Shown one piece after another: positions 32,136 through 58,873 of a DNA stretch of 64,000 nt (its first letter is position 1; every line of letters starts with the position of its first letter). The position numbers were made by a program, and so were the translations under genes. The notes under the pieces were generated by a model that saw only the letters and a list, made by a program, of their open reading frames with translations, ran no database searches and had not been told where the DNA came from. The DNA is from Eubacterium limosum (GTDB lineage: Bacteria > Bacillota > Clostridia > Eubacteriales > Eubacteriaceae). Where the stretch lies: positions 2,418,001 through 2,482,000 of the forward strand of contig NZ_CP019962.1 in assembly GCF_000807675.2 (NCBI RefSeq). The letters run 5' to 3'.

Positions 32136-33059
32136 ATGAAAGCAGAAATGACCTTAGCAGAATGGATAGGAAAGCGGCAGCAGTCGGTTCGGCTCACAAG
32201 CTTAAAAACCTATGAAAGCTATGAGCGGGCGCATATTATTCCTTTTTTGGGCAGCCAGAGGCTCGCAAGCATCAGTAATCAGCATATGATGGAATTCAGG
32301 GAGCATTTAAAAAGGAAGGAAAAGCTCGCGCCAAAGACGATTCGAGACATACAGGGACACCTGATTAAAATCCTGAAGGATGCCAAATCACACGGCTATA
32401 TCGAAGCCGTGCCAGAGGCAGCCAAAGCGGTGTTGAAGACCAGCGAAAAGCCGATTTTATCCCAAAGCGAGCAGAAAATACTGTGCGAGACGCTGAAAAA
32501 AGATTTGAATGCAAAATCGATGGCGGTCCTTTTATCCGTAGGCGCAGGGCTGAGACTGGGCGAAGTGATGGGATTAAATGTGGGAGATGTGGACCTGGAG
32601 GCAGGCGTTTTGCGCGTCCGGTACAGTCGCCAGCGGGTAAAAACAGCGGAAGAAGACAAAACTAGCGTGATCAAGACAGCGCTGAAAACAGGAAAAAGCC
32701 GCCGGGATATCCCGCTGAACGAACCGCTAAAAGAAATTTTAAAAGAATATCTGAAACACAGCACCCAAAAAGATATCCAGAAGCCACTGATCTCCTGGAA
32801 AGAAAAAAGGCCCATTGACGCACGGACCATTCAATATTATTTTACAGAATTAAAAAAAAGCCATCAGCTCGACCCTTCGGTGACCTTTCACAGCCTCCGT
32901 CATTCCTTTGCCACCCGAGCCCTGGAAGCAGGCGTTGACATGCAGGCCCTGTCCGAACTCATGGGACACAGCAGCGTTGCCTTTACCCTGAGCTGCTACG
33001 GACATTGCGCCACAGAGCATAAAAGAGCGCAGATGGAAAAAATGGCACAATGCTGGTGA
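32136..33059 (+). CDS. Tyrosine recombinase beside an invertible segment
   Basis: A 307-residue phage-integrase-family recombinase. The N-terminal ~100 residues form the SAM-like core-binding domain. The catalytic set is complete: Arg140 (GAGLRLGEV), Lys187 (TGKSRR), His252 and Arg255 (FHSLRHSFATRA), His278 (LMGHSSV) and nucleophile Tyr288 (SCYGH). The ATG at 32136 has AGAGGAAGAG ahead; the frame is open back to 32088, inside the terminator. The gene ends 8 bp before the left inverted repeat. This is the arrangement of DNA invertases that act on a neighbouring promoter. No other phage or plasmid gene is nearby. Confidence 0.92.
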   Translation: MKAEMTLAEWIGKRQQSVRLTSLKTYESYERAHIIPFLGSQRLASISNQHMMEFREHLKRKEKLAPKTIRDIQGHLIKILKDAKSHGYIEAVPEAAKAVLKTSEKPILSQSEQKILCETLKKDLNAKSMAVLLSVGAGLRLGEVMGLNVGDVDLEAGVLRVRYSRQRVKTAEEDKTSVIKTALKTGKSRRDIPLNEPLKEILKEYLKHSTQKDIQKPLISWKEKRPIDARTIQYYFTELKKSHQLDPSVTFHSLRHSFATRALEAGVDMQALSELMGHSSVAFTLSCYGHCATEHKRAQMEKMAQCW

Positions 33060-33067
33060 AATAAGGG

Positions 33068-33095
33068 TCGTTAAGTTAGGAACTTAACGATAAAA
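33068..33095 (+). repeat. Left inverted repeat (IRL) of the invertible segment
   Basis: The 28-nt repeat matches the reverse complement of 33279-33306 at 27 of 28 positions. It is built like a tyrosine-recombinase core site: arm CGTTAAG (33069-33075), 7-bp spacer TTAGGAA (33076-33082), arm CTTAACG (33083-33089), then ATAAAA. The spacer is asymmetric, which gives the site a direction. Confidence 0.9.
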
Positions 33096-33138
33096 TAACT
33101 ATAAAAATATTTCTTTTCTCAATAAAATTTTCAATAAT

Positions 33139-33166
33139 TTGATTTTTCTGCAATTGTTTTTATAGA
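33139..33166 (+). promoter_or_regulatory. Weak promoter-like boxes, rightward
   Basis: TTGATT (33139-33144) and TATAGA (33161-33166) are 16 bases apart, pointing at the dockerin cluster in the given orientation. A terminator-like hairpin lies between them and the first gene. Confidence 0.3.
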
Positions 33167-33196
33167 TTTTATTGTCATAAAATCTTATACTTCTCG

Positions 33197-33233
33197 ATTA
33201 TATAAGTCTATCATGTTTTATTAAAACTTGCAA
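33197..33233 (-). promoter_or_regulatory. Promoter-like boxes, leftward in the given orientation
   Basis: The minus strand has a perfect TATAAT (33202-33197) and an alternative TTGCAA (33233-33228) with TAGACT (33210-33205) at 17-base spacing. After inversion of the segment these would face the dockerin cluster. Confidence 0.35.
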
Positions 33234-33271
33234 TATGTGGCAAAAAGTGTGGCAAGTCTTTTTTTATTTTT
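33226..33271 (+). terminator. Terminator-like hairpin inside the invertible segment
   Basis: ACTTGC (33226-33231) pairs with GCAAGT (33252-33257) over a 20-base loop, followed by CTTTTTTTATTTTTT. The stem is short but the T-run is strong. The loop contains the direct repeat TGTGGCAA twice. Confidence 0.35.
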
Positions 33272-33278
33272 TGATGTT

Positions 33279-33306
33279 TTTTATCGTTAAGTTCCTAACT
33301 TAATGA
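33279..33306 (-). repeat. Right inverted repeat (IRR) of the invertible segment
   Basis: Reverse complement of 33068-33095 with one mismatch at 33304. The spacer reads TTCCTAA (33292-33298) on the + strand, opposite to IRL, so recombination between the two sites would invert, not delete. The frame of the next gene is open back into this repeat (ATG at 33303), but that start is not used here. Confidence 0.9.
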
Positions 33307-33347
33307 TGAATTTAACTTTAAGTAAGGAGAGGAAGGAGAGCGTTGTC

Positions 33348-36146
33348 ATGAAATTAAAAAAAAGAGTGGTACATATTCTAACAGTTTTATTAATCTTAGT
33401 TCTGCTGCCTGTAGGTGTATTTGCACAACAGGATTTTGGGGAAAAGTCTGAGACAGACAATTCGGCGAAACAGTTGACAGAGCAAGAGGCTATACCATCT
33501 GCGACATCTGAAAATACACAAGCTAATAAAGTAAATGTAACGGAAGAACTCGAAGATAAATTAACAAAACCGGAAAAAGAGGAAACAATGCCGCTATTGG
33601 AATTGCCTGAATTCAATCTGCCACAGATATCAGTAACAGAGCAGAATGAGATACAAAAATCAGAGCCTGAGTCTTCACCTCGACAAGAAGTTAAAAGAAT
33701 CGAGACAGTAGCAAAAGATGATTATACATACCGAGAAGTGGAAGGTGGCATTGAAATTACTAAATACAGCGGTACAGATGCCGATGTAATCATACCGGAT
33801 ACGTTTGAAGGCAAAAGTGTCATAAGCCTGGCAGCACATTCATTTTCTAACAATTCGACCATCATTTCTGTTACAGTTGGCGCAAACGTGCAGAAAATTG
33901 GTAGTTATGCTTTTTATTCCTGTAGCAAGTTAGCTAAGGTGGTTGTTCCTGCTTCTGTGATAGATATCGACAGTAATGCTTTTGGATATGACAATCAGAT
34001 TAAAATTTTTGGCACGCCGGGGAGTTTTGTCCAGACTTACGCCGAAACAAATCATTTGAACTTCGTTAATATAATGGCTAAAAAGTCAGGAGATTTCTAT
34101 TATGAAAATGACACAGTAGACGGAAGTATCGGAGTTCGAATATTAACTTACGAAGGAAAAAGCGCGGTTTTGAATCTCAATACAATCGAGGGAAAAAATA
34201 TTATAACAATTGGTAAAGGTGCTTTTTTCAACAATCAAACACTGGAAAGTCTCAGCCTGGGAAAACAGATAAAAATAATCGAGGATAACGCTTTTAGCAG
34301 CTGTAGCAGTTTGAAAAATGTAACATTTGCAGAGGGACTGAAAAGTCTCGGCAGTAATGCTTTTAGCAGGAGTGCGTTAACCACTGTTAAAATGCCGAAT
34401 TCGACAGAGAGTTTGGGAACTTATGTTTTTTATTATTGTGAGTCTTTGAAAGAAATCACGACGGGCACAGGGATAAAAATTATTCCGCAGTCTTTTGCCT
34501 CGAATTGTATTAATCTTGAAAAAATCACCTTTAATGGAGAAGTTGAGGAAATAAATAGTTATGCTTATACTGGCTGTGGTTCACTGCGTGTTATTGAAAT
34601 TCCTGCGAGTGTTGTCACATTTGGGGATTATCCTTTTAATCAATCTACGATTATTTCAGGGAAGAAAGGCAGCGCTGCAGAAAAGTTTGCAAAAGAAAAA
34701 GGATTAATGTTTGTAGATGAAAGCACGAAAAAATCAGGTGATTTTTATTATGAGGAGATTGAAAACGGTGTGCGGATTATCGGTTTCACATCAAACAGTA
34801 GTGAACTGACGATACCAGACAAACTTGAAAATAAGGATGTAGTTGAAATCGGTAATTCTGCTTTTTCTGGGAATTCAAATCTGAAAACAGTTACTGTGGG
34901 TAATAGTATTATTGTTATCGGCAATAATGCTTTTTCGACATGCAGAAATCTAAAAATTGTAAATTTCAACCAAAATTTATCAAAAATTGGGGACAGTGCG
35001 TTTTTTGAATGCAGAACGTTAAAATCCATAACACTACCGGAAAATATTAAAACAATTGGAAAAGATGCGTTTGGGGGTTGTAATGGCTTGAAAAAATTAG
35101 AAATTCCCGAAGGCATACAGTCCATCAGCTGTGAAGGATATACATATAAGCCGTTAAATGCGCATATTGTCGGCAAAGAAGGCACAGAAGCTGAAGCGTT
35201 TGCGAAGGATAAGGGATGGCCTTTCGTCAGCGATACCACGCCCAATGAAAATGACTATTATTATGAAAGTGTCGACGATGGGGTTAAAATACTGTTTTCG
35301 GCCAATTCGGTAAACAAAGATGTCCCCCAAAGCCTGGGCGGAAAACCCGTTGTTGAAATTGGAGACAGCGCCTTTGCGTATGATAATGATATCGAAAATT
35401 TTGAAAGTGGCAATGTCCGTTTTATAAATGCAAATGCATTTGTAGGCAGCACCCTCAAAAATATTAAACTTTCAGAGAAAACGGAGGATATCGGAGATTA
35501 TGCTTTTAGAGACTGCAAAGCGTTAACGGCCATAAAAATTCCTAACAGTACGAAAGAGTTGGGAGTTGGCGCTTTCAACTATTGCAGCAAGTTGGCGTCC
35601 GTCACATTGGGAAATAGCATTCAAACAATAAAAAGTGGCACTTTCGATTATGCAGCCTTCAAATCGATCACGATGCCGACTTCCATCAAAACAATCGAAA
35701 ATGCGTTTTGGCAAAGCCGAGTAGAGACATTGATTATTCCGGAAAATGCCGAGGACGTTACCTTGAAGGATTATTCTTTGAGATTATACAGTCTTAAAGA
35801 GCTCTATCTACCAGCCTGTGTAACAACCATTGAGGAAAATGCGATTGGGGATTATCATTCGCCGGATTTGATTATTTACGGAGATGCTGGTTCGGTCGCG
35901 GAGGCGTACGCTCAAAAATACAACATTAATTTCAGCACAGAGATGTGGCAGTTAGGGGATGTAAATAAAGATAAGCAAATCAACGCCTCCGATGCTTTAT
36001 TAATTTTACGACATTCTGTCAAGGAAATAGAACTGACCGGCAATGATTTCATCTGGGGAGATGTCAATAAAGATACACTGGTCAACTCATCGGATGGTTT
36101 GCAGATATTAAGATATGCCGTTAAAGAGATTAATCATTTTGATTGA
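33348..36146 (+). CDS. Secreted BspA-like LRR protein with C-terminal dockerin (first gene after the switch)
   Basis: A 932-residue secreted protein. A signal peptide (VLLILVLLPVGVFA) is followed by ~95 residues of acidic linker, then from about residue 124 four BspA/LRR_5-type modules, each opening with a YxYxExxxG-like segment (KKSGDFYYE in modules 2 and 3). Typical repeat cores are IGSYAFYSCSKL and IGDSAFFECRTL. The last ~66 residues are a type I dockerin with two calcium loops, DVNKDKQINASDALLILRHS and DVNKDTLVNSSDGLQILRYA. The ATG at 33348 follows AAGGAGAGGAAGGAGAG and gives a proper signal peptide. The dockerin should attach it to a cohesin such as those at 38002 and 40786. The LRR part suggests binding to host or microbial surfaces. 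Confidence 0.9.
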   Translation: MKLKKRVVHILTVLLILVLLPVGVFAQQDFGEKSETDNSAKQLTEQEAIPSATSENTQANKVNVTEELEDKLTKPEKEETMPLLELPEFNLPQISVTEQNEIQKSEPESSPRQEVKRIETVAKDDYTYREVEGGIEITKYSGTDADVIIPDTFEGKSVISLAAHSFSNNSTIISVTVGANVQKIGSYAFYSCSKLAKVVVPASVIDIDSNAFGYDNQIKIFGTPGSFVQTYAETNHLNFVNIMAKKSGDFYYENDTVDGSIGVRILTYEGKSAVLNLNTIEGKNIITIGKGAFFNNQTLESLSLGKQIKIIEDNAFSSCSSLKNVTFAEGLKSLGSNAFSRSALTTVKMPNSTESLGTYVFYYCESLKEITTGTGIKIIPQSFASNCINLEKITFNGEVEEINSYAYTGCGSLRVIEIPASVVTFGDYPFNQSTIISGKKGSAAEKFAKEKGLMFVDESTKKSGDFYYEEIENGVRIIGFTSNSSELTIPDKLENKDVVEIGNSAFSGNSNLKTVTVGNSIIVIGNNAFSTCRNLKIVNFNQNLSKIGDSAFFECRTLKSITLPENIKTIGKDAFGGCNGLKKLEIPEGIQSISCEGYTYKPLNAHIVGKEGTEAEAFAKDKGWPFVSDTTPNENDYYYESVDDGVKILFSANSVNKDVPQSLGGKPVVEIGDSAFAYDNDIENFESGNVRFINANAFVGSTLKNIKLSEKTEDIGDYAFRDCKALTAIKIPNSTKELGVGAFNYCSKLASVTLGNSIQTIKSGTFDYAAFKSITMPTSIKTIENAFWQSRVETLIIPENAEDVTLKDYSLRLYSLKELYLPACVTTIEENAIGDYHSPDLIIYGDAGSVAEAYAQKYNINFSTEMWQLGDVNKDKQINASDALLILRHSVKEIELTGNDFIWGDVNKDTLVNSSDGLQILRYAVKEINHFD

Positions 36147-36165
36147 TAGACGGAACAAAAGTATT

Positions 36166-37941
36166 ATGGGAGAACAAAAAAGAAAAAGAAAAAATTCAAA
36201 TAAGAAGAGTAAAAAAGACAAAAGAAACAGTGTTATATTGACAAATAATAAAAATGCAGCCGCTGCCAGAAAAAAAGGCGTTGACTTTTTTAAAGTGATT
36301 TTATTTACTATTCCCTTTTTCTACGGATTGTTTTACGAATTCACAGCCTGTCTTTCTGGCATAGCACTGGCAGTATTTCTGATTTATTGGATTTATAAAC
36401 AAGAAACTTTTTGTTTTGGCGGAACAGGCGCCAGCCTGCTGATGGTTTTCTTTCTCTGCTATCTGCTCACCTGCATCTGGGCGGTTGATCGGGGAATGGC
36501 CTTTGCAGGATTTATCAAGATTTCGCCTTGCATTTTGTTTTTACTGGTAATGATGCAGTTCACGCGGAATGAGATCAGGGACTGCCTGCAAGTGGTTCCG
36601 TTGTCGAGTGCCGTAATGGCTGTTTTATCCATTTCTGGGTTTATCATTCCGGAATTTTCCAACTGGTTTATTGATGGTGGACGATTGGGCGGATTTTTCC
36701 AATATGCCAACAGCTTTGCTCTTTATCTGCTTTTGGGAATAGTTGTTATTGGCTTTAGGAATGAACGTAGCCCTGTGAATATGGCGCTATTTGGTATTTT
36801 ACTGCTCGGTATTTTTCTGACAGGCAGCCGAACTGTTTTTGTCTTAACGGCTGTGCTTGTATTGGTCTTGTTGATAAAGGCTGAAAAAATACGGCTGCCT
36901 CTTTTGGGGATTTTCAGCGTACTCCTTGCCGTGGTTCTGGTGTATGTCATTCTATCGGGAGATACTGGCGGAATTGGACGGTTTACAAAACTGTTCACCC
37001 AGTCCACAGAGTTATGGGGGCGTGTATTATACTGGAAGGATTCCATACATCTTTTGATCGAGAATCCTTTTGGTATTGGCAGTTCGGGTTATTATTACAT
37101 ACAGCCTCAGGTGCAGACGGGCGTTTATTCCACGCGATACGTTCATAACATGCTATTGCAGATGGGGATGGACGCGGGGATCCCGGCTATGTTGATTTTT
37201 GGATTTGTATTTTTAAAAACACTTTTTTCTGAAAAGCGCAGCTTTATGGAAAAAACACTATTGATGCTCATCGGTATCCATAGTTTTGTAGATTTTGATT
37301 TACAATTTTTGTGCATATGGTTCATCTTACTTATGGTGTTTGATCTGGGTAAGGTGAGAACAATTTCTACACCCCTCATTGCTAAAAAGGCATTTATAAC
37401 TATTTTGGCACTTATATCAGGGTTTTACACTTATCTTGGAATTGGTTTTTATTCAGGACATATAGGTAATTATGAAAATGCTTTAAAGATACTGCCATTT
37501 GAAACTGAGTTTAAGACAAATATGATTTTAGAGGGCTCGTCAGAGAATGACACTATCCGTTTATCAAAAGATATTTTGAACACGAATGATGCGGTGGCAC
37601 TGGCTTATGAAGGAATGGTTCTAGAGGCAGGGCAACGTCAGGATTATGAGTCAATGATTTTGTATAAGCAGGAGTCTATTAAGCGTGCTAAATATGATGA
37701 AAAACGTTATGAAGAATATTTGAAAATTCTTGAGGAGACTATGGATTTTTATAATAAACGCGGCGAAATTGAAAAAATTTATTATTATGGAGATATGGCG
37801 TTACAAATTCCTGATATGCTTAGGCAGGTGGAGAATAATACCGATCCGATCGCTTATCAGATAAAAGATAAACCTCAATTGGAATTGTCGGAAAACGCCC
37901 GTGTTTATTTAAATCAGCTTCAAGAATGTTTAATTCATTAG
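36166..37941 (+). CDS. O-antigen ligase / oligosaccharyltransferase-family membrane protein
   Basis: A 591-residue polytopic membrane protein. A very basic N-terminus (about residues 4-30) precedes roughly ten hydrophobic segments, then a soluble ~150-residue helical, TPR-like C-terminus. The Wzy_C signatures are visible: GGFFQYANSFALYLLLG, then LTGSRTVF, and RVLYWKDSIHLLIENPFGIG with VHNMLLQMGMDAGIP in the large extracellular loop. Members transfer polysaccharides to lipid or protein acceptors. It starts 19 bases after a dockerin gene and precedes the cohesin scaffold, so it may attach glycans to these surface proteins. Ligase, polymerase and protein-glycosylating members cannot be told apart by eye. 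Confidence 0.75.
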   Translation: MGEQKRKRKNSNKKSKKDKRNSVILTNNKNAAAARKKGVDFFKVILFTIPFFYGLFYEFTACLSGIALAVFLIYWIYKQETFCFGGTGASLLMVFFLCYLLTCIWAVDRGMAFAGFIKISPCILFLLVMMQFTRNEIRDCLQVVPLSSAVMAVLSISGFIIPEFSNWFIDGGRLGGFFQYANSFALYLLLGIVVIGFRNERSPVNMALFGILLLGIFLTGSRTVFVLTAVLVLVLLIKAEKIRLPLLGIFSVLLAVVLVYVILSGDTGGIGRFTKLFTQSTELWGRVLYWKDSIHLLIENPFGIGSSGYYYIQPQVQTGVYSTRYVHNMLLQMGMDAGIPAMLIFGFVFLKTLFSEKRSFMEKTLLMLIGIHSFVDFDLQFLCIWFILLMVFDLGKVRTISTPLIAKKAFITILALISGFYTYLGIGFYSGHIGNYENALKILPFETEFKTNMILEGSSENDTIRLSKDILNTNDAVALAYEGMVLEAGQRQDYESMILYKQESIKRAKYDEKRYEEYLKILEETMDFYNKRGEIEKIYYYGDMALQIPDMLRQVENNTDPIAYQIKDKPQLELSENARVYLNQLQECLIH

Positions 37942-38001: not shown

Positions 38002-40707
38002 ATGAAAAAGAAGTCATTGATGAAAAAAATGACCAGTCTGATTGTGGCTTTGGCATTGATGCTGACAATGATACCAGCTGCATTGGCAGAGGAGCCAATG
38101 CGTGTATCATTATCAACGGAAGCTGGAGAGATCAAACCAGGCGAAGAATTCACTGTGACGGTTAATGTGTCAGAAGGCTCAAAGATGGGAGCCTTCGATT
38201 ATACCATTAACTACAATTCAGATGAAGTGGAAGTGGTAAAAGCCGTTAAAGGCGATGCCTTTAAACGATGGACTGATCGTCTCGATGAGGAAGGAAAGAG
38301 TTCCCCGACCTGGACGATTAACAAAGAAATCGCAGGCGAATTAAATCTTGCGATCGCCTCTCCTGAGTGGATGACAGAAGGAGGTGCTCTGCTCGTTGTG
38401 ACCTTTAAGGCTAAAACCAAAGCGGTTATGGGGGATGCGCAGATTACACAGACCATTAAAAACTGTGAACACGCTAAAGGTCAGGGTGCAATGGAAACTG
38501 TACCTGCAATCAATGAAGAAGATGTTACCATCAAAGATAAGGTGAAAGTCGACCCCGATGTCAGTGCTGTCACATTAAAAACTGCGCCGACAAAGACCAG
38601 TTATATTACTGATAAAGAGACATTTGATCCTGCCGGCGGCGTTATCACTGCGACCTATACAAATGAGGCCACTCAGGATTTTAATTTGACAGCAGAAATG
38701 TGCAGTGGTTATGATTTGAGTAAATCCGGTAAGTATGCCGTTGATGTTACTTATAAAAATGTTAAGGCGGCAAAAGGTTTCGATATTACAGTAGCCGAAC
38801 GTTCAATTACTTCAGCGGTCTTTACGGAGCCAACGGGAGATCAAAGAAACTATCTCCAGGGAAAACCTGAGCAGCATCTGGATTTAACAGGAGCTTTCTG
38901 GCAAGTGGAATATAGTGATAGAACCAGCGAAGAGATTGCTGTGACAGAAGCAATGTGCTCTGGCTATAATCTTGAAAATGCTGGCAATCAGAATGTAACG
39001 GTCAGGCTTCCAGGATGGGACACCGCAGGAAGTTTTGAAATTTATGTTAAAGCCAAGACGGTCACGACAATTGCAATGGATTCTGCCCCTGCAAAAACAG
39101 AGTACGTTGCAGGAAAAGACACCAAATTAGATGTTTCCGGCGGTAAGTTGAAAGTTACTTATGATAATGGTGTCACGGAAAGCATCGCTCTGACAGATGT
39201 AATGTGTTCAGGATACGACTTAAATACGCTGGGTACTCAGACAGTGACGGTTACTTATGGTGAAAAGACAACGTCTTTCACGATTAATGTGCGCAAAGAA
39301 ATTGACAGACTTGAAGTGACACCGCCAACAAAATTAGAATATGTTGAAGGACAGACTTTTGACCCAGCCGGAGGAAAAGTCAAATTAATCTATACAGACA
39401 AAACTGAAGAAACCGTTGACCTGACAGCCGAAATGTGTCAGGGAATGGATATGAGCAAAGCTGGTACCTACGCGGTCATGGTTAGCTGCCAGAATAAACA
39501 AGTGGAGAAAGCTTTTGATGTAAAAGTCATTCCTAAAACAATTGTAGCGGCACAGTTTACCGCACCAACCAGTGACCAAACAAATTATCTGGAAGGAAAG
39601 AAGAATCAGCATCTCGATCTGACAGGAGCCCACTGGACAGCACAGTACAACGATGGCGATGAAAAAGAAATAGCAGTGACAGAAGCTATGTGTTCGGATT
39701 ATGATTTTAACAAACCGGGCAATCAGACCGTAACAGTTACATTGCCTGAATGGAAGACGCCAGCCACTTTTGCTATTACAGTTATTGAAAAAACTGTTAC
39801 TGGAGTTTCAATGAACACTCTGCCGGGCAAAACGGAATATATTGCCGGACAGGACATGAGCTTAGATGTAACAGGTGGAAAACTTAGCATCGTTTATGAT
39901 AATGGCAATTCCGAAATTGTTAATCTGACAGCGGATATGTGTTCAACAGTCGATTTGACAACACTTGGCGTACAGACCGTCAAGGTAACTTATGCCGAAA
40001 AAGAGACAAGTTTTAATATTTCAGTTAAGAAAGCTTTAAAAACGATCGAGTGGAATACCGAACCGACGAAAACGACTTATAAACAGGGCAGTGCATTTGC
40101 CGCGGATGGCGCCATTAACGCAATCTATACAGACGGTTCAAACGCCCTGGCTATTCCGGTAACAGTAGAAATGTGCTCTGGCTACCAAATGGAAAAAGCC
40201 GGGAAACAGGTAGTGGTTGTCACTTACACTCAAAAGGCTGAAGATACAATTGTTGCAGGAAATAAAAGCTTAAGCTACACAATTGCGATTGATGGGATCA
40301 CGCTGAAAACAACACCGCAGAAATTGGAATATAAGATGGGTGAAGCATTGAATCCTGCAGGATTATCTGTTGTTTTCTATGACAGTACAAAAGATGCTGA
40401 AGCAACCATTGTATGGGAATCCACTTTGCTTAAAGTAAGCGGATATGATGCAAATAAAGAGGGGACTCAGAAAATTACGGTTATTTATACGGATCATAAT
40501 ACTAAGGAAGAATATCAGCTGAAGGATGCCTTTGAAGTAACAGTTGTTAAACAGATACCAGTCAATAACGATAAAAACAAAAAGGACGGCAAGAATAATT
40601 CTTCTAATCCGTCTACAGGTACTGCAGCAGGTAGTGCGGCAGTTATCGCTGCTTTGTTTGTACTGACTGCAGTTGGTATAAGAGCTTATCAAATACGCAG
40701 AAAATGA
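38002..40707 (+). CDS. Cell-wall-anchored cohesin scaffold with eight Ig-like repeats
   Basis: A 901-residue surface protein. The signal peptide ends near MIPAALAEE. Residues ~33-165 form a cohesin-type beta domain (GEIKPGEEFTVTVNVSEGSK, then FDYTINYNSDEVEVV). Eight bacterial Ig-like (Big_3-type) repeats of ~75-85 residues follow, many with the motif EMCSGYDL. Repeats 1-3 resemble repeats 4-6 in order. The C-terminus has the sorting signal NPSTG, a hydrophobic segment (VIAALFVLTAVGI) and RRK, so a sortase should link it to peptidoglycan. It is the likely wall receptor for the dockerin proteins. The Ig repeats probably act as a stalk. No sortase gene is in the window. Confidence 0.85.
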   Translation: MKKKSLMKKMTSLIVALALMLTMIPAALAEEPMRVSLSTEAGEIKPGEEFTVTVNVSEGSKMGAFDYTINYNSDEVEVVKAVKGDAFKRWTDRLDEEGKSSPTWTINKEIAGELNLAIASPEWMTEGGALLVVTFKAKTKAVMGDAQITQTIKNCEHAKGQGAMETVPAINEEDVTIKDKVKVDPDVSAVTLKTAPTKTSYITDKETFDPAGGVITATYTNEATQDFNLTAEMCSGYDLSKSGKYAVDVTYKNVKAAKGFDITVAERSITSAVFTEPTGDQRNYLQGKPEQHLDLTGAFWQVEYSDRTSEEIAVTEAMCSGYNLENAGNQNVTVRLPGWDTAGSFEIYVKAKTVTTIAMDSAPAKTEYVAGKDTKLDVSGGKLKVTYDNGVTESIALTDVMCSGYDLNTLGTQTVTVTYGEKTTSFTINVRKEIDRLEVTPPTKLEYVEGQTFDPAGGKVKLIYTDKTEETVDLTAEMCQGMDMSKAGTYAVMVSCQNKQVEKAFDVKVIPKTIVAAQFTAPTSDQTNYLEGKKNQHLDLTGAHWTAQYNDGDEKEIAVTEAMCSDYDFNKPGNQTVTVTLPEWKTPATFAITVIEKTVTGVSMNTLPGKTEYIAGQDMSLDVTGGKLSIVYDNGNSEIVNLTADMCSTVDLTTLGVQTVKVTYAEKETSFNISVKKALKTIEWNTEPTKTTYKQGSAFAADGAINAIYTDGSNALAIPVTVEMCSGYQMEKAGKQVVVVTYTQKAEDTIVAGNKSLSYTIAIDGITLKTTPQKLEYKMGEALNPAGLSVVFYDSTKDAEATIVWESTLLKVSGYDANKEGTQKITVIYTDHNTKEEYQLKDAFEVTVVKQIPVNNDKNKKDGKNNSSNPSTGTAAGSAAVIAALFVLTAVGIRAYQIRRK

Positions 40708-40785: not shown

Positions 40786-41517
40786 ATGAAATCAAAAACA
40801 TCTTTTTTAATCCTATTATTATTGATAACTGCCATCATTTATACGCCAGCCGTTTTTGCGCAGCAAGGCGAAACAAATATTTCTAAAACAGAAGAAAATG
40901 ATATGGTAATCTACAGTTTGAATCTGGCACAGAATTCAAATATTCAAGCAGCCGATTTTGTCCTTTCTTACAAAGGAGAAAATCTGGAATTTGTGGAAAT
41001 AAAAAATGGGCCCCTTGCGTCTGCAGAAAATACGATGGTGGCCAGAAATCATGTAGCTGAGGAAAAAAAGATTTATTGCAGTTATGCCTCGCTTAACCCC
41101 AATGAGAACGGCGGTACGATTTTAAATGTTTACTTTAAAAAAATATCCAATTCTTCGGAACAGCCGGTTGTAGGAATCGAAGTTAAAGATCAGTACAATG
41201 AAAACAATGAGCTTATGAGCGAAAAGTTGATAACAGGAGACCTATCGGTGGCGGCTGTAGAAACGGATAAATCCATCAATGACAGCGACGCTCCATCAAC
41301 AGCTCTAGAAGCGTCGGAAGAAAATATTCCCGTTCAAATTGATAATATAAACGAGGAAACATCTGAGAATAATAATGTAAACGATATGAAAAGTAATACT
41401 GATACGTTTTCCAATCAAAGGATGATTTCAGCGATTGTTGTAGGAATGATTCTCGTACTGCTCATCGTTGTTGCGGTGGTGGTAAAGAAAAATAAAAAGA
41501 ATTCCAAAAACAGCTGA
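40786..41517 (+). CDS. Membrane-anchored cohesin-domain protein
   Basis: A 243-residue protein: signal peptide (LLLLITAIIYTPAVFA), one cohesin-like domain at about residues 27-160 (LNLAQNSNIQAADFVLSYKG, then NGGTILNVYFKK), an acidic low-complexity linker, and a C-terminal membrane segment (IVVGMILVLLIVVAVVV) ending in a lysine-rich tail. It lacks a sorting motif, so it would hold its partner at the membrane. It thus offers a second attachment point for dockerin proteins. The cohesin call rests on beta-strand pattern and context and is less certain than in the scaffold. Confidence 0.72.
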   Translation: MKSKTSFLILLLLITAIIYTPAVFAQQGETNISKTEENDMVIYSLNLAQNSNIQAADFVLSYKGENLEFVEIKNGPLASAENTMVARNHVAEEKKIYCSYASLNPNENGGTILNVYFKKISNSSEQPVVGIEVKDQYNENNELMSEKLITGDLSVAAVETDKSINDSDAPSTALEASEENIPVQIDNINEETSENNNVNDMKSNTDTFSNQRMISAIVVGMILVLLIVVAVVVKKNKKNSKNS

Positions 41518-48260: not shown

Positions 48261-50030
48261 ATGAAATTAAAAAGAACTATGGCAATTATGATGGCGGCAG
48301 TGCTGTGCACAACAGCACTGCCCGTCAGCGTCTTTGCAGAAGACACAACTCATGTAGAATCGGTTTTAGTGAATGAAGAAATGTCTTCAGAAAATCAGAG
48401 AAATGGTGAAAATGCGGTTGAACAGACCGAGGAAGAACGACAGGCAGATTTGAAGTGTATTGAAGCCATGCCTTGGTCTGACGATCTGCAGATGACAGCA
48501 GCTCAGGCGGCAGCCAGCCAGTTGATCGATGATGAGATCACGGTCAAGAGCCGTCTGGAAAGCATTCAGCATTCAACATATCCAGACGGGTCAAAATTTG
48601 AAGAAGAGGGATTTTACGGAGCGACTACCTGTTTTGGTTTTGCAAAGAAAATACAGTATCTTCTGTTTGAAAATATTGTTTCATGGAATTATGATGGCTC
48701 TGCCAATTCGGGACTCATAACGATTGGATCGGTTAGTCCAAACTATACAGCGGATAATGTCGCTAGTCTTCTTTCGCAGGCACAGGTTGGAGACCTCCTC
48801 CAGCTTGAAAACGGCAACGGTTATTCACAGCACTCTATGATTTTCGGAGGACGGACAGCCGGCGGCTTTATTATCTATGATGCCAACTGGGATAGAGCCA
48901 ACACCGTTTTTATCCGTGAGGTTGGTTATGGTACGTTTTCTGGAAGACAAAATCCAAAATTATCGCTTCTGCGCAATACCAACTACCCCAAAAAGGCTGT
49001 TAATGATGTGAAAGCGCCAACTGTGTCGGATGTGGTCATTTCGGATGTATCGCCCTATGCTTATCAGGTTTACTGTAATGTAAGTGATGATGTCGCTGTT
49101 AAATCTGTCAGAGTTGCGGTGTGGACAGAGAAAAATGGACAGGATGATTTGAAATGGGTTGATGCGGCGGTCAAGGACAATACAGCATCGGCAATCATTT
49201 ACCTTGGCGATCATAATTACGAAGAAGGCATCTACCATACGCATATCTATGCTTACGACTATTCGGGGAAACAAACAGGAGTTGCTGCGTCGGACACAGC
49301 TATTGACTATACAGCGCCTGAACTGGCAGAAACGCAATTTGTTAAAAAAAATCACAGCCGTTTTGTGATCGGTGGAAAGGTAGAAGATATGATTTCCGGT
49401 GTTGACCGTATTGAAATAAGAACGGTCTGGCCGGGCGGCGAAGTGACAGAAAAAGCAGTGATAACAGGAAACAACTGGGAGTATGCTTTTAATTTTACGG
49501 ATCATCAGGCAGGTTCTGGTTATTATTACATTTATATAACAGCTTATGATAAAGCCGGGAACAGCAACTATAACTGGTCACCGACATTGTCAGAATATTT
49601 TGACGTTCGGCTTGTTCAATACATGGTTAATTTTGATACGCAGGGCGGAAATACAATGGCATCTGCGCTGGTTCAGGAAGATATGTTTCTAAAGAAGCCG
49701 GAAGATCCGCAACGGGAAGGCTATATTTTTAAAGGATGGTACCAGGATAAAGCATGCACAAAAATCTGGAACTTTGATAAAGATCGTGTAGAAGAAAATA
49801 AAACCTTATACGCCGCCTGGGCGGAAAAGGGAATCCTCGGCGATGTGTATGAAGACGGCAGTATCAATTCATCCGATGCGCTTTTGTGCCTGCGGCATTC
49901 GATAAAGGAAGTTTCATTAAAAGGCAATCAGTTTAAGCAGGCAGATGTTACCTTTGATGATAAAGTGAACGCTTCTGATGCCTTGCAGATTTTGAGGTAT
50001 GCGGTGAAAGAAATCAATCGTTTTGATTAA
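48261..50030 (+). CDS. Secreted papain-like-domain protein with GBS-Bsp, InlB-type repeat and dockerin
   Basis: A 589-residue secreted protein. After the signal peptide (VLCTTALPVSVFAE) and the shared cassette ESVLVNEEMSSENQ comes a domain with a cysteine-peptidase layout: Cys124 (TTCFGFAKK), VGDLLQL, His191 (SQHSMIFGG) and an Asp/Asn in IYDANWD. Two Ig-like domains follow; the first resembles GBS-Bsp repeats (VAVWTEKNGQDDLKW). Then comes an InlB/Flg_new repeat (GYIFKGWYQDKACT) and a dockerin (DVYEDGSINSSDALLCLRHS, DVTFDDKVNASDALQILRYA). The N-terminal domain may cleave peptide or cell-wall amide bonds, but an inactive binding role is possible. The gene at 51625 has a related N-terminus. Confidence 0.82.
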   Translation: MKLKRTMAIMMAAVLCTTALPVSVFAEDTTHVESVLVNEEMSSENQRNGENAVEQTEEERQADLKCIEAMPWSDDLQMTAAQAAASQLIDDEITVKSRLESIQHSTYPDGSKFEEEGFYGATTCFGFAKKIQYLLFENIVSWNYDGSANSGLITIGSVSPNYTADNVASLLSQAQVGDLLQLENGNGYSQHSMIFGGRTAGGFIIYDANWDRANTVFIREVGYGTFSGRQNPKLSLLRNTNYPKKAVNDVKAPTVSDVVISDVSPYAYQVYCNVSDDVAVKSVRVAVWTEKNGQDDLKWVDAAVKDNTASAIIYLGDHNYEEGIYHTHIYAYDYSGKQTGVAASDTAIDYTAPELAETQFVKKNHSRFVIGGKVEDMISGVDRIEIRTVWPGGEVTEKAVITGNNWEYAFNFTDHQAGSGYYYIYITAYDKAGNSNYNWSPTLSEYFDVRLVQYMVNFDTQGGNTMASALVQEDMFLKKPEDPQREGYIFKGWYQDKACTKIWNFDKDRVEENKTLYAAWAEKGILGDVYEDGSINSSDALLCLRHSIKEVSLKGNQFKQADVTFDDKVNASDALQILRYAVKEINRFD

Positions 50031-50052
50031 ATCAAAGAGACAGGAAAAACAA

Positions 50053-51525
50053 ATGAAAAAAGTGATAAATATACTTGCATTCATCGTTCTGGTACTTTTA
50101 ATTGGAATATTTCCAGTATGTGCGGAAAATAGTGGTGTCGAGCAAAGTCAAGTGATACAGATTAATAAGACAAATTTTCCGGATGAGAATTTTAGGAGTT
50201 ATGTAAAAGATGAAGTGGCCAAAGGCGGAGATGTTTTAACACCGGAAATGATTGAACGTACGAACGCTATCTTTGTAAGTGAGCGTTTGATCAAGAATTT
50301 GGATGGGATCCTTTATTTTAAAAATCTTGAAAACTTGTTTTGCAGCAATAATTATCTGACAGAGTTAGACGTCAGGGGTTTGATACATTTAAAGAATTTG
50401 TCCTGCTTTGACAACTATTTAGGAGTATTAGATTTGACAGAAAACTCTGAATTGGAAAATTTGTTATGCTGGAATAATCGGATAACTTCAATTCATTTAA
50501 AAGAAAACAGCAGCTTAAAGCAAATTACATGCAATTTAAATCAATTAGAAACTTTAGATCTAGATGAAGCTATTAATCTTGAGAAAATCTATTGTTCAGA
50601 GAATCGTTTAACGCGTTTAAATGTAAATGAATTAAAAAAACTAACACAATTGTACTGCAGCAATAACCAATTAAGTAGTTTAGATGTGAAAAACAATGAA
50701 AACCTGACAGAATTAGACTGTTCTTCAAATCAATTGAATGAACTGGATTTGAGTGGAGCGACTTATCTCAGATCGTTAGCGTGTTACAATAACTGTCTTG
50801 CTAAATTAAACATAGAGAAAAATACTTATCTTAACAGCGGCACATCCTATACCTCAGGGCAGACGGTCAGTGCTTTGAAAGTAGTGGAAAACACCAATGG
50901 ATTCGAAATGGATTTAAAAGCGCTGGATCTGATGGAGGAAGATTTTGAAAAGATAACGATGACTGGTGGTGGAGTATTAAATAAAGAAACTGGAATTGTA
51001 ACGTTTATCGACCGTCCATATGCCGTTTATTATGAGTACAATACAGGTAATAAAGGCCTGGAAATGCGTGTTGATATACCCATTAAATCAGTTTCTGAGA
51101 TTACACTTGTGCAAATGCCAGTCAAAACCCTTTATGCTTTTGGTGAAGATTTAGATTTGGCAGGATTAAAGATCGAAGCCCTTTATAATGACGGCAGCCG
51201 AGAAATAGTTAATGAAAATTTACAGGGAATGGGATATAGCAGTGAAATTGCCGGAGCGCAGACACTAACAGTCATATATAAAGAAAAGACTGTTCAGTTT
51301 ACAGTAGAGGTACTGGAACCGGAATATCTTTTAGGAGATATTAATGCCGATATGGCTATTAACTCATCGGATGCCCTTCAAGCATTGCGCCACTCAGTTA
51401 AAGAAATTGTTTTGACCGCTGATATGTTCATTCGCGCGGATGTCACAAAAGATAATCTTGTTAACGCTTCAGACGCCCTGCAGATTTTGAGGTATGCGGT
51501 CAAAGAAATCGATCGGTTTGAATAA
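50053..51525 (+). CDS. Secreted leucine-rich-repeat protein with Ig-like domain and dockerin
   Basis: A 490-residue secreted protein. Signal peptide (IVLVLLIGIFPVCAEN), a short N-cap, then about nine ~21-residue leucine-rich repeats with a recurring cysteine and asparagine pair (LYCSNNQLSSLDV). A single Ig-like domain of the scaffold type (LAGLKIEALYNDGSREIV) follows, then the dockerin (DINADMAINSSDALQALRHS, DVTKDNLVNASDALQILRYA). These LRRs are a different type from the BspA modules of the larger paralogues and resemble internalin-like adhesins. The ATG at 50053 is preferred; the frame opens at 50023 inside the upstream gene. Confidence 0.87.
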   Translation: MKKVINILAFIVLVLLIGIFPVCAENSGVEQSQVIQINKTNFPDENFRSYVKDEVAKGGDVLTPEMIERTNAIFVSERLIKNLDGILYFKNLENLFCSNNYLTELDVRGLIHLKNLSCFDNYLGVLDLTENSELENLLCWNNRITSIHLKENSSLKQITCNLNQLETLDLDEAINLEKIYCSENRLTRLNVNELKKLTQLYCSNNQLSSLDVKNNENLTELDCSSNQLNELDLSGATYLRSLACYNNCLAKLNIEKNTYLNSGTSYTSGQTVSALKVVENTNGFEMDLKALDLMEEDFEKITMTGGGVLNKETGIVTFIDRPYAVYYEYNTGNKGLEMRVDIPIKSVSEITLVQMPVKTLYAFGEDLDLAGLKIEALYNDGSREIVNENLQGMGYSSEIAGAQTLTVIYKEKTVQFTVEVLEPEYLLGDINADMAINSSDALQALRHSVKEIVLTADMFIRADVTKDNLVNASDALQILRYAVKEIDRFE

Positions 51526-51556
51526 GTTATAGCAGAGCCTTGATGTTATATTTGTA

Positions 51557-51589
51557 AGCATACAGACCGATTTACTAGGTCTGTATGCT
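51557..51589 (+). other. Perfect 12-bp hairpin between dockerin genes
   Basis: AGCATACAGACC (51557-51568) and GGTCTGTATGCT (51578-51589) form a perfect stem with a 9-base loop. No T-run follows, so it is more likely a processing, stability or protein-binding element than a terminator. Confidence 0.55.
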
Positions 51590-51624
51590 GCTGATGAAAA
51601 TTTATATAGAGATAAGGTGACGAA

Positions 51625-53826
51625 ATGATGAAAAAAGTAATGAGACGAAGTTGCTTTATATTATTTTTTACGGTATTGCTAACTACTTTAGTACCAATTT
51701 CCAGAGCAAATGCAATGTCAAAATTTGAATTTGATCAAAAATTAAACGAAGCGCAAATTGAATATTGGCACGGGAAAAAACAAACGTTTTTTGACCATGG
51801 GGAGACTTGTCATGGATATGCTAGGCAACTAACAAAAGTTATATTTGGAGTGGAATGTGGTAATGGCCTAGGAAAAGGATGGATTAGGATTGATGCGAAT
51901 TCAAATGATTCGAAAATTAATAATGTACATATAGGAGATCTTGTTCGTTTTCGCAATACACCTTCTCTTGATCATACAATCATTGTTACTAATATCATTG
52001 GGGATACTATCATTTATACCGATTGCAATAGTGATGGACAGTCAACGATAAAGTGGAACCAGCAAATATCAAAGGGGACACTTGCGGGGAAATTAAGTCA
52101 GCCACTAGTTTTTAATCAAGGAGCTTACGGTTATATAGCACATTATGCAGCTAATCCTGTCCAATCCACACTCCCCTGTGAACACGATCTGGATTCTCCA
52201 AGGCAAGGAGACTGTGTTTTTGGCGATGGTTTTATCCTTCAGGGCTGGGCATTAGACGGCGAGGGAATATCCAGAGTGACCTATACCATTTTTAATGAAG
52301 CAACAGGAAAGACATCGCAGGAACAAGACATGCAGATGGGAATGGAACGAATTGATGTTTACAATATATATCCACAGTACAATAATCGAAATGCCGGTTA
52401 TTATAAATATATCGACTCGCGGGAACTGGAGAAAGGACATAATATTATCGATGTCTATGCGTATACGCCAAGCGGCAGAAAGCATATTGAGCACAGAGGT
52501 ATTTTGTTTATTGACGATACAAAGCCGGTTTTGACTAATGTTGAAATTATTGATTTAGGAAACAAGGGGTTTACGGTCACAGGAAAATGCAGTGATGAAG
52601 GCAGCGGTGTGGATAAAATAAGGATTGCGATTTGGTCAGATAAATACGGACAGGAAGAAAATCTGTGGCATGATATTGGGGTTGGGCCGGATCAACGGTT
52701 TTATTACCGGGTTAATTTTGATGAATACCATGGAGAAAAAGGGCCGTATAATATCCATTTATACGCATATGATCGGGCGAAAAACCCGGGATTTGATGCG
52801 ATAGTCGGGTACGTACCAATGCTAAAACCAGCTCAAATAGAAGAAAAAAATGGACATCTGTACGCACTTTATGATACATCTTTGACATGGGCAGGTGCAA
52901 GAGATCAGGCGGTGTTTATGGATGGACATTTAGCGACGGTGAATTCTCAGGATGAACAAAAATTTCTGACTGCGATGGTGGAAAAGGGTGAGAAAAATAG
53001 TTATTGGATTGGGGCGGAAACGCAGGATTATCAAATATGGCGTTGGATAACAGGTGAAAGTTTTGACTATAGGAACTGGTCACAGAATCAGCCGGATAAT
53101 TATGGCAATATTGAAGATAAGGCAGCGATTTATTCAGCAGACGGGACATGGAATGATTTGAACAACGAAGACCGTTATGGAACCGGCTTTATCGTTGAAT
53201 ATGAATTGCAAAATAACGAAGGCAGTAAAATGCTGAACTACAATGGCAAACTCTATACGCGCTATGATGTCAGCTTGCCGTGGAATGAAGCGCAGAAATT
53301 CTGTGAGATGAAAGGCGGAAGATTAGCAGTTGTTAAAGATCAGGAAACACAAAATATATTAAAAGAACTTATCCAGGATGGTGGGCGTTCCGAATATTTG
53401 TTGGGTGCCTCGGCTGAAAAAAATAAAGGAGAATGGAGATGGATCGATAATAGCCCATTAACCTACACGAATTGGGGAATAAATGAACCCAATAATACCT
53501 CCAGTTGTGAAGAGTATCTTGTTATGGGCGTGGATGGTTGCTGGAATGACCGTGCGACTTATTTTGAAAATATGCAGACGACGCTAGGCTTTATTTGTGA
53601 ACAGGAGGAAAAGCCTGAAGTAGTTTTGAAAATTGGCGATGTAAATGATGATAAAATCATTAACGCAACCGACGCATTGATGGTACTGCGCCACTCGGTT
53701 AAAGAAATCACGCTTAAAAACAATGAGTTTATCCGGGCGGACGTCACAAAAGATAATACAGTTAACGCAACCGATGCATTGCAGATTCTGCGCTATGCAG
53801 TCAAAGAAATCGATCGTTTTGATTGA
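51625..53826 (+). CDS. Secreted papain-like-domain protein with two C-type lectin domains and dockerin
   Basis: A 733-residue secreted protein. After the signal peptide comes a domain like that of 48261-50030: Cys62 (ETCHGYARQL), IGDLVRF, His117 (LDHTIIV) and Asp133/Asn135. A GBS-Bsp-like Ig domain (IRIAIWSDKYGQEENLW) follows. Two C-type lectin-like domains come next, ~405-527 and ~538-660. The first has QPD (489-491) with WND (509-511); the second has EPN (621-623) with WND (640-642) and four cysteines. In animal lectins QPD favours galactose and EPN mannose, and WND binds calcium. The dockerin (DVNDDKIINATDALMVLRHS, DVTKDNTVNATDALQILRYA) ends the protein. It is probably a surface lectin displayed by the cohesin proteins. 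Confidence 0.85.
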   Translation: MMKKVMRRSCFILFFTVLLTTLVPISRANAMSKFEFDQKLNEAQIEYWHGKKQTFFDHGETCHGYARQLTKVIFGVECGNGLGKGWIRIDANSNDSKINNVHIGDLVRFRNTPSLDHTIIVTNIIGDTIIYTDCNSDGQSTIKWNQQISKGTLAGKLSQPLVFNQGAYGYIAHYAANPVQSTLPCEHDLDSPRQGDCVFGDGFILQGWALDGEGISRVTYTIFNEATGKTSQEQDMQMGMERIDVYNIYPQYNNRNAGYYKYIDSRELEKGHNIIDVYAYTPSGRKHIEHRGILFIDDTKPVLTNVEIIDLGNKGFTVTGKCSDEGSGVDKIRIAIWSDKYGQEENLWHDIGVGPDQRFYYRVNFDEYHGEKGPYNIHLYAYDRAKNPGFDAIVGYVPMLKPAQIEEKNGHLYALYDTSLTWAGARDQAVFMDGHLATVNSQDEQKFLTAMVEKGEKNSYWIGAETQDYQIWRWITGESFDYRNWSQNQPDNYGNIEDKAAIYSADGTWNDLNNEDRYGTGFIVEYELQNNEGSKMLNYNGKLYTRYDVSLPWNEAQKFCEMKGGRLAVVKDQETQNILKELIQDGGRSEYLLGASAEKNKGEWRWIDNSPLTYTNWGINEPNNTSSCEEYLVMGVDGCWNDRATYFENMQTTLGFICEQEEKPEVVLKIGDVNDDKIINATDALMVLRHSVKEITLKNNEFIRADVTKDNTVNATDALQILRYAVKEIDRFD

Positions 53827-53859
53827 AAAAAGTGTTTTATGAAAGACAGGTAATAAAGG

Positions 53860-56800
53860 ATGAAAAAGAATAGATTATGGTTGATTAACATTTTAGTTTG
53901 CTTTTTTCTTTTAATTGGCGGAACTGTTTATGCCGAAGAAAGTAATTCAGATGCTTTAATAAATGCGGGGCATACTCCGATACAAATCGAAAAAAGTAAT
54001 GAAATGGGAACTTCTTCAGAGCAAGTGAATGAGGGAAAACTGGAGGATAAAAACACCTTATCCACTCATTTTGTTTCAAAAAAGGATATTAACCAAATAA
54101 ACGTTAATAGTGTACAAGCATCTGAAGACGCGAAAAAAGCAATAGAAAACTTCAATTATTCATCAAACTTGAGTTTCGAAAACAGAGCTGTATCAAGGCA
54201 GGAAGAGAGATGGGGCTATCAAGATTTGGACAAACGGTCAAATAGTGCGGCTAGAAAAGCATTGTATTCAGAAATCCAAAATGCAGCAGCTGACTTTGAA
54301 AAAAGCAATGTAAATATTGAGAATAAATTTGAAAATAAAAATGTATTTGCAAGTATTGACCTGTCTGCTCTTGGTTTATCGGAGACGGAAGTGGTCGAAA
54401 CCTATAAAGTTTTCACCTATGATCATCCGGAATATTATTGGCTTACGAATAGTTTGACTATTATATATAGTGATAATAATCCTAATTTACTTTTATCCGT
54501 TTATGATGAGTATGTTTTATCAGAGGAAAGAAATAAATGTGATGCAGTCATCCAAAATGCTATTTCAGAGTATGAAGCGTTGACCGTTGGAATGGCAACA
54601 AATTATGATAAAATTCTCGCGGTTCATGACAAAATCATTAAGGATATTGACTATGCGTATAATGAAGCTGGAGATCCGAAGACCGCTGTTTGGGCACACA
54701 ATATTATGGGGGTTTTTGAAAATAAATCGGCTGTTTGTGAAGGATATGCCCGTGCTTTTCAATTAATTATGAATCATTTTGGTATTGAAAACGTGTATGT
54801 TACCGGATTTGCTGGAGAAGACCACGCCTGGAATATGGTAAAGCTTGACGATGGTCAATACTATTATATCGATACTACTTTTGACGATCAGCCTGCTTTT
54901 CCGGGAGGGGTGATGTATGAATATTTTAACGCACCAGTAGCGCAGTTTGAAGCGATACACACAGCGGAACAACCAACTGGAATAGGAATCGATTTTCTTT
55001 ATGAATTACCAAAAGCGTCTGAGAATGACGCCTATACTTATTATCGAAAAATGAACGCCTACGCTGAAGATGGAACAACAGATGATTTAGAAGCGATCCT
55101 TAACCATTATGTGGAAGCTGCAAAAATGGTGTCGGATTCAGACAGAAATGTCATTGCGATAAAGACAGACAGCAGTAATTTCCAGAACACGTTTAATATG
55201 CTTGGAATGTACTATGATATGGATATTGAAAAAAATGCATTAGATTATTATCTTCAGGAAGTTAAAAATTCCGAAGGACAGTGTATCGGCGGCGGTGATG
55301 TAACTATCAGAGCTGACGCAGAGCATCACACCATTTATATCGCTTTGGCAGAGCAGCCGGAAATGGCGGAAGCGTACAAAAATGGCGAATCTGTTGGTAA
55401 ATTTAAGTCTTTTACAGAGGCTTATGCGATGCTAACAGATGGCCAGGCGGATTATACTTTGAAAGTGTTAACAGAGTATGCGATGTTTCCGGAAAATATG
55501 CCTGCGTATGATAATGTACAGATTGAAGGATCACTGTTTTATGATGGTTTTTCAATTGGCGACGAGAAAGTCTATCACACTTCAACTTTATATCTGACAA
55601 AAGATTTTACTTTTAGTAAAAATATCACATTTAAAAATTTAACAGTTGAACCGGCTTTTGTACAGTATAACAGGCGTCATATTACTTTGGATCAATGTAC
55701 CATGAGATTAAAAGGCGAGCCGACATGGGTACGATTTGGAACTACTTTTTTCTGGGTTAGTTTTGATGAAAAAAGTGAATCTACCATTATAATCGAAGGG
55801 GACAGACAGGATCATAGTCAGGATCAACCTCAAAATGAAAAGAATTCTGGCGGTTCGTTTAACTATGGACGAATTGGTATCAGTAAAATCAAATTGATGG
55901 AAGTATCGCAATTGCAGTTTTTAAATATTATCGGGAGAATCGGCCAAATTGAGACAGGAGCGGTAAGAAATTCACAGGATGAAGAGATAAGACACAGTAA
56001 TGCAACAGTTCTTTATAATGAGGTGAATAATATTGAAGTTGGTTCTGTGCATATCTCAAAAGATGCTTATCTCACCTCAATGGTTAGCCTTGATACTAAT
56101 GCCTCCACTATGGAGTCAATAACCGGTGACAAAAATGATCATATTGATCCAAATCTGACTTTTGGAAATTGGTACAATAAAACAAATCAGTACAATCAAA
56201 TATATTTGACCTGCCGTCCAGAAGAACAGGTCAATAGCGCATTGTTAAACTTTAATTTGTTGGGAGATATCATCGAAGGTGATTTTCATGTTTTATGGAA
56301 CGAAAGCTCTGAGGAGCCTTGGCAGGAGAAAGACTTTGTATTTTTGAAAGCACCGGCATTAGAAGAAGAAAATGTAACTTTTCAAAAAAGTTGGAATCAT
56401 TTTTTAACCAGTAAAAAGAATGAAAAGGGTGAATTTGTTTTGTCGAAACAAATTTATTGTGATGATGTAAAAGCAAAAGACAACATTATCGTTGTTGAAA
56501 CTGGTCAAAAGAAGAAGTTTGATTTTATTTATTATCCTGAAAATCATACCGAAAAGTATACCGAGGTTGGATATTCAACGCTGGATCCTCAGATCGCTGA
56601 GATTGATGAACAAGGTTTTATAACAGGAAAATTAGTGGGAACAAGCGATGTAACTGCCGTTTTAGGCGGATATATCGGAATAGAGGCGACGGTGAAGGTA
56701 ATAAATGGCGGCGAGATAGAGAAGCTGGAGCTTTTATCAAAGCCAAAGAAACAGATTTATTATGTCGGGGATTATCTGCAGACAGAGGGAGGAGCATTAG

Positions 56801-57663: not shown

Positions 57664-57675
57664 AGAGGAAACGAA

Positions 57676-58866: not shown

Positions 58867-58873
58867 GACATTC

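Follow-up and report, generated by a model that had tools for sequence, protein, structure and literature searches.

Does a recombinase gene that ends beside a pair of inverted repeats, directly ahead of a cluster of cohesin and dockerin genes, belong to a switch that turns a bacterial surface on and off? The question is raised by a stretch of 64,000 nucleotides (here called the window) from Eubacterium limosum ATCC 8486, a gut bacterium whose growth substrates are simple gases and methanol; its genome (G000) is a single contig of 4,422,837 bp. The initial annotation had read this locus as a recombinase-driven invertible promoter in front of the cluster. Our analysis favours a phase-variation switch of this kind, in which the recombinase would invert a 217-bp promoter segment before the cohesin-dockerin cluster, with a probability of about 0.78. 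This reading is carried by inverted site pairs next to all nine members of a recombinase clade, by a homologous cassette that was found inverted, and by a predicted promoter in all nine segments. One part of the annotation did not hold: the promoter was described as standing in front of the cluster, but in the assembly it points at the recombinase.

The recombinase and its paired sites

The recombinase gene is complete, as annotated, and its intact 307-aa frame ends 8 bp ahead of the left repeat (Table 1). The product scored 104.6 bits with PF00589 (curated cut-off 27.1). It stayed below the NCBIfam cut-offs for XerA (118 of 220 bits), XerC (92 of 335) and XerD (79 of 330), and it reached 19 bits with the Fim-type DNA invertase model NF007370, the cut-off of which is 221. 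A second model, NF007371, was absent from its matches at E≤0.001; eight of the nine clade members matched that model (best E 1e-7).

The 28-nt repeat described at 33068-33095 differs from the reverse complement of 33279-33306 at one of 28 bases. With copies up to 1 kb apart, the longest perfect inverted repeat of the whole window is this site pair (25 bp); in 30 first-order Markov simulations of the window the best inverted repeat measured 12–14 bp. A 21-nt form of the site, with a free centre and up to two mismatches, occurred twice in the window and never in 100 shuffles. Chance is thus excluded as the origin of the pair. The centre is asymmetric, as had been noted; the division into 7-bp arms and a 7-bp spacer was one choice, and we describe the sites by 10-bp arms with three asymmetric bases. 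The centres of the two copies run in opposite directions (AGG versus CCT) and face each other, again as annotated.

We searched for the site core, a 17-mer with at most one mismatch, in 41 genomes, namely five of Eubacterium (G000 to G004, of which G004 is 80% complete) and 36 others. There were 16 matches, four in each of four Eubacterium genomes and all in inverted pairs; no match was found in G004 or in the 36 genomes outside Eubacterium. A ninth inverted pair with a different centre was found in G003. The recombinases beside these pairs form a clade of nine members with at least 44% identity (two each in G000, G001 and G002, three in G003), supported at 100/100 in a tree of 36 recombinases from the four genomes, from which the fragment L094 was omitted. 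All nine carry the inverted site pair 9–16 bp past the stop codon. Among 28 more distant recombinases of G000 to G003 (L087 to L114, 27–36% identity), none was followed by a comparable short pair beyond its 3′ end. The site centres are AGG at six loci, GGG at two and GGA at one, and they are identical within each of the nine pairs. The residues R140, K184, H252, R255, H278 and Y288, which we take to be the catalytic set, are invariant across the clade. The window recombinase is its most diverged member, with 44–49% identity to all others and a long branch in the tree. For G000, 17 recombinase matches were counted and 11 of them analysed.

The initial annotation had proposed a comparison of segment orientation with related genomes. 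The window locus itself is absent from the relatives, but a homologous cassette has the reverse orientation in another species: aligned to the segment of G002b, that of G001a is inverted (95.2% over 187 bp), and the adjoining target gene aligns directly. The same pattern of inverted segment and direct target was found between G001a and G002a (84.9%). Judging from these alignments and the site family, inversion very likely also takes place at the window locus.

Promoter direction and the predicted mode of switching

The motif TTGnnn-N17-TGnTAnnnT is present in all nine segments; it is directed toward the recombinase in eight of them and toward the target in G001a only. In the window as assembled, the predicted promoter points to the recombinase and away from the surface genes, which we call OFF. 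Its extended −10 element agrees with the motif RTGNTATAAT published for E. callanderi KIST612 (PMC13340025) and with what has been reported for ATCC 8486, a T/G-rich −14 site (PMC5651825).

Upstream of this promoter, and reaching into its −35 element, lies a direct-repeat motif that we term the CAC box. Alone, it was found at 11 sites in six of 25 genomes, with one match in the control. The CAC box together with the promoter, as a 50-bp pattern with at most one mismatch, matched 48 sites, spread over 21 of the 67 genomes that were scanned in the order; the reversed control matched none (both strands). The pattern was built from sites of G000 to G003, G011 and G013, which match by construction, and the independent part of the test consists of the sites in further genomes and the empty controls. 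The genes behind CAC-box promoters encode, by eye, polysaccharide chain-length, CapD-like, flagellin-like and hydrophobic-W proteins as well as kinases. Such promoters also precede a BspA-type leucine-rich-repeat (LRR) gene (L259) and a cohesin-dockerin cluster (G054, L260), and by eye no recombinase adjoins the latter. At the 30 other CAC-box loci tested, out of the 48 matches, no flanking inverted repeat scored above 13; the window scores 25. In four Eubacterium genomes a CAC-box promoter also stands before a putative RNA of about 200 nt (by eye) that ends in a strong hairpin and T-run (G000:1306710, L032, L219 to L222); Rfam returned no family at its gathering threshold for the G000 copy.

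The initial annotation also placed 'promoter-like boxes' in the segment. A plain consensus scan of 32900-33500 performed at chance level (three matches versus 1.7 expected) and was replaced as evidence by the cross-genome conservation; what stands is the conserved CAC-box promoter, facing left. The best match of the plain scan is also leftward (TTAATA-16-TATAAT, 33224-33197). Terminators within the segments were considered as a general block in the OFF state and rejected: there is none in the window segment, and few other segments have one. The G003b segment contains the hairpin CCCCTAAATAGGGG followed by a T-run and facing the target, one base of which is changed in the G000b version, and a different hairpin in G003c faces the recombinase.

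We propose that the recombinase would bind both inverted sites and flip the segment between them. In the assembled orientation the promoter would fire back into the recombinase gene from its 3′ side, leaving the surface genes OFF, and its transcript would run antisense into that gene; any feedback on switching is a guess. In the other orientation, transcription would cross the right site with a leader of about 175 nt and enter 14 genes, possibly as one transcript of about 33 kb. The annotated proximity of the next gene to the right repeat stands, with a gap of 41 nt (42 bp in the annotation); its ATG at 33348 lies behind AGGAGAGGAAGGAGA. The cell surface would then be furnished by the cluster with cohesin receptors and with LRR, lectin, RCC1 and transglutaminase proteins that carry dockerins. 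Since the direct-repeat box upstream of the promoter is conserved, expression probably needs two keys, the orientation of the segment and a regulator acting at the box.

Table 1. Features of the predicted switch and of the cluster behind it (window coordinates)
Feature	Position	Strand	Basis
Tyrosine recombinase gene, likely invertase	32136..33059	+	307 aa, intact frame; PF00589 E=6.6e-30
Left recombination site TCGTTAAGTTAGGAACTTAACGA	33068..33090	+	23 bp; 10-bp arms, perfect; centre AGG
Predicted invertible segment, site centre to site centre	33079..33295	.	217 bp, non-coding
Predicted promoter	33205..33233	-	−35 TTGCAA 33233-33228; 17-nt spacer; extended −10 TGA-TAGACT 33210-33205
CAC box TTGCCACACTTTTTGCCACATATTG (direct repeat), reaching into −35	33231..33255	-	Cross-genome conservation
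Right recombination site, opposite orientation	33284..33306	-	Centre CCT; one arm mismatch
First target gene: signal peptide (by eye), BspA-type LRR, C-terminal dockerin	33348..36146	+	LRR_5 1.5e-96; Dockerin_1 1.3e-7
O-antigen ligase/Wzy-like membrane protein	36115..37941	+	PF04932 9.7e-20; start from mechanical list of open reading frames
Large protein, N-terminal cohesin and Big_3 repeats	38002..40707	+	Big_3 2.1e-58
Small cohesin protein, C-terminal membrane anchor (by eye)	40786..41517	+	PF00963 5.9e-6
Two LRR-dockerin genes	41542-44736, 44803-48201	+	Pfam
Six genes, five with dockerin	48261..59614	+	Dockerin proteins: GBS_Bsp-like; LRR/Big_3; C-type lectin; transglutaminase; one short
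LRR/Big_2 protein among these six, no dockerin match	57676-58866	+	Pfam
RCC1-repeat dockerin gene	59683..64548 (window ends at 64000)	+	Pfam
14th gene, dockerin	64605-66629 (beyond window)	+	Pfam

Evidence against the proposed switch and rival explanations

Several observations weigh against a functioning switch at this place. The cohesin protein of the window was not found in G001 to G004, and no relative has this exact locus. Upstream of the recombinases of G001a and G002a/b there is no aligned sequence, so these are homologous cassettes that are not proven to be copies in the same place. In G000b, G003b and L281, an IMG/VR contig that we took as a second E. callanderi (99.8–100% identical to G003), the sister switch is oriented alike. 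Eight of the nine segments stand OFF, which also fits switches that move rarely or are locked. G000b and G003b, the loci with the GGG centre, are nearly identical to each other, and the nine loci therefore cannot count as fully independent cases. With the site pattern reversed as a control, there were four single matches, in four of the 36 site-free other genomes. Promoter scoring across the nine segments was ad hoc, with small direction margins (1–3 points) in most, and in G003c another promoter match scored higher, although in the same direction. The plain scan omits the favoured promoter, which has eight of 12 consensus bases by eye (threshold nine), and, for the segment as assembled, it contains a weaker match that faces right (TTGTCA-18-GATTAT, 33172-33201). 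The distance between the −10 element and the right site would be 115 bp in the ON state, versus 26–27 bp in the other eight segments. In the first half of the cluster, finally, promoter-like matches exceed those in shuffles (65 versus 37.4, both strands), so that later cluster genes may have promoters of their own; the second half shows no excess (52 versus 46.1). Two of these points, the omission of the favoured promoter from the plain scan and the shared orientation of the sister switch in three records, made us slightly lower our estimate for the phase-variation switch and raise that for a locked one.

Such a former switch, now locked in this lineage, would leave the cluster silent or dependent on internal promoters. 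It is consistent with the predominance of OFF segments, with the divergence of the window recombinase from the rest of its clade and with the arm mismatch of the right site. By eye, the recombinase ATG lies about 30 nt past a terminator-like hairpin of the preceding gene (32068-32136), so that a separate promoter would hardly fit in between, and the gene may rely on read-through. Against locking speak the intact 307-aa frame, the retained invariant residues, the perfect left site and a promoter that is exact to its class. We regard a locked switch as unlikely, if still the strongest of the alternatives. Ranked below it, and likewise improbable, is an arrangement with promoters in both directions, where inversion would swap promoters or regulatory input; the cluster would now be weakly driven from the rightward match mentioned above, and inversion would add control by the CAC box. 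Matches of this weakness, however, are expected by chance in an AT-rich stretch (three versus 1.7). Among the remaining eight segments, the top-scoring match points to the recombinase in seven and to the target in G001a, though the margin is often just 1–3 points.

The sites might instead be palindromic operators of a transcription regulator, or autoregulation sites of the recombinase, with a segment that never inverts. Operators are often palindromic, and each of the two sites is by itself a near-perfect palindrome. But in the genomes searched the sites are paired, inverted and found beside a single recombinase clade, their centres match within loci and differ between them, and a homologous segment was found inverted; an operator has no need of matching asymmetric centres. 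We consider this explanation very unlikely.

The window segment departs from its relatives in its promoter class, in the −10 distance given above and in its length (217 bp versus 165–168 bp). These differences suggest that the predicted switch took up a promoter of the CAC-box class, by capture or by exchange. Within the target gene of the sister switch, a 492-bp stretch with preserved frame is inverted between two E. callanderi records (L281:2979-3470 versus L084:10526-11017); no inverted repeat was found at its ends, and it is likely an assembly error and was not used.

The surface cluster, further candidate inversion loci and known systems

The putative target comprises 14 genes on one strand that span 33348-66629, about 33 kb, and extend past the window; ten encode dockerin proteins and two encode cohesin proteins. 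The gaps between the genes are below 100 bp (mechanical open reading frame ends), and terminator-like matches in the window part of the cluster are no commoner than in shuffles (13 versus 12.2 and 7 versus 10.6, both strands). In the protein at 38002..40707 the cohesin domain (G000:2456113-2456448, E=4.4e-9) was above the Pfam cut-off in the genome search; the hmmscan of the whole protein did not return it. Other cohesin domains exist elsewhere in G000, G001, G002 and G003. In three relatives, the gene that precedes the recombinase adjoins a TetR-like gene instead, and the sequence that G000 shares with them is interrupted between about 32108 and about 67218. Together with the cohesin protein not found in G001 to G004, this break gives the impression that recombinase, switch and cluster form a single island specific to the lineage.

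The targets of the other eight predicted switches were assigned by eye. They are large surface proteins in G000b, G003b, G002a, G001a and G002b, a LytTR-like regulator in G001b and G003a, and in G003c an HD-like protein ahead of large surface genes.

The locus is not isolated: G000 holds at least nine candidate inversion loci, two short and seven long. The long ones came from a scan that allowed arms more than 900 bp apart around the distant recombinases, 23 of 28 of which lie inside inverted repeats of their own (17–33 bp; segments of 1.1–1.6 kb). The seven of G000 are at 3618435, 1090324, 2889028, 1970617, 1678884, 2746280 and 800957. In one of seven locus groups (L090/L106/L108) the segment is inverted in G003 relative to G000 and G001, with 2.5-kb flanks that are 96.6–99.5% identical; the other six groups, as far as they can be compared, have the same orientation. 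A second pair of dockerin (1402 aa, by eye) and cohesin (490 aa, PF00963) genes follows a recombinase at L091:4885-12840 (G000:1678884-1686839), which is enclosed by a perfect 33-bp inverted repeat; the arrangement of recombinase and repeat recurs in L099 and L100. Behind the long locus of L090 (9418-11843), a signal-peptidase-like gene and small secreted proteins have, by eye, the look of a SipW/TasA-type matrix operon.

A small HD-like protein (172–211 aa, by eye) recurs beside inversion loci (L087:6656-7174, L088:11464-12060, L089:6241-6765, L091:6173-6769 and L085:7895-8530), and an HD-type gene beside an invertible site is mentioned for Desulfitobacterium (PMC5903667). In populations of ATCC 8486 evolved on CO, a frameshift was reported in the integrase-family gene ELIM_c1031 (PMC7079680); judged by its gene number, this gene may lie near the 1.09-Mb inversion locus. 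For E. limosum B2 compared with ATCC 8486, five blocks in reverse orientation have been reported, in a statement that gives no coordinates (PMC9503626). We also located a molybdenum-cofactor riboswitch at G000:3421013-3421126, and one has been reported for ATCC 8486 at 3,421,126 (PMC5651825).

Promoter inversion by a tyrosine recombinase is already known, also in Clostridia; a cohesin-dockerin target is unusual. The fim switch of E. coli (fimS with FimB/FimE) resembles the window locus in its layout, a short promoter segment within inverted repeats, a tyrosine recombinase and a surface target. The window differs from fim in having one recombinase rather than two and a cohesin-dockerin cluster rather than pili, and invertase models match it weakly. 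The fim segment measures 296 bp and is promoter-only (PMC5903667). In C. difficile, likewise, short upstream segments invert before surface and signalling genes, as at cwpV (Cdi1), the flagellar Cdi4, cmr, pdcB and pdcC (PMC2784873, PMC9286219, PMC8844915, PMC5903667). The C. difficile recombinase RecV serves more than one switch (PMC5903667), whereas here each switch has its own adjoining recombinase and matched centres. Similar, too, are the invertons of gut Clostridia, where a group of invertons is paired with a group of tyrosine recombinases near surface genes; the main text of that article does not mention Eubacterium, nor were cohesin or dockerin found in it (PMC11892184). The cluster itself is like a cellulosome in combining cohesin with type I dockerin modules, and unlike one in its cargo of LRR, lectin, RCC1 and transglutaminase proteins; no glycoside hydrolase family was above the cut-off among the Pfam matches of the 14 cluster proteins. 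Searches of a mainly open-access body of literature listed no report of inversion before cohesin-dockerin genes, nor any in which E. limosum or E. callanderi shows phase variation or inversion of DNA; two articles that name both E. limosum and invertible promoters do so in unconnected passages.

A wider reading would join these observations, and we put it forward tentatively, as doubtful rather than probable. The locus would be a two-key surface switch with self-feedback: a captured CAC-box promoter would allow a 33-kb adhesive coat to be made only if orientation and regulator agree, and the antisense transcript of the OFF state would damp the switching of the recombinase itself. The switch would belong to a set of private inversion loci that runs through the genus, with six to nine per genome among the loci examined in four genomes; in G000, two of them precede cohesin-dockerin clusters.

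If the cohesin-dockerin coat does phase-vary, a clonal culture of this acetogen would be a mixture of coated and bare cells. Such a mixture would matter for colonization of the gut, for adhesion and sensitivity to phages, and for how reproducibly E. limosum performs as an industrial strain. A genome-wide study of transcription start sites in ATCC 8486 exists (PMC5651825), and the claim can thus be tested on existing data. For the genus as a whole, the private pairs of recombinase and site would amount to a natural catalogue of inversion tools.

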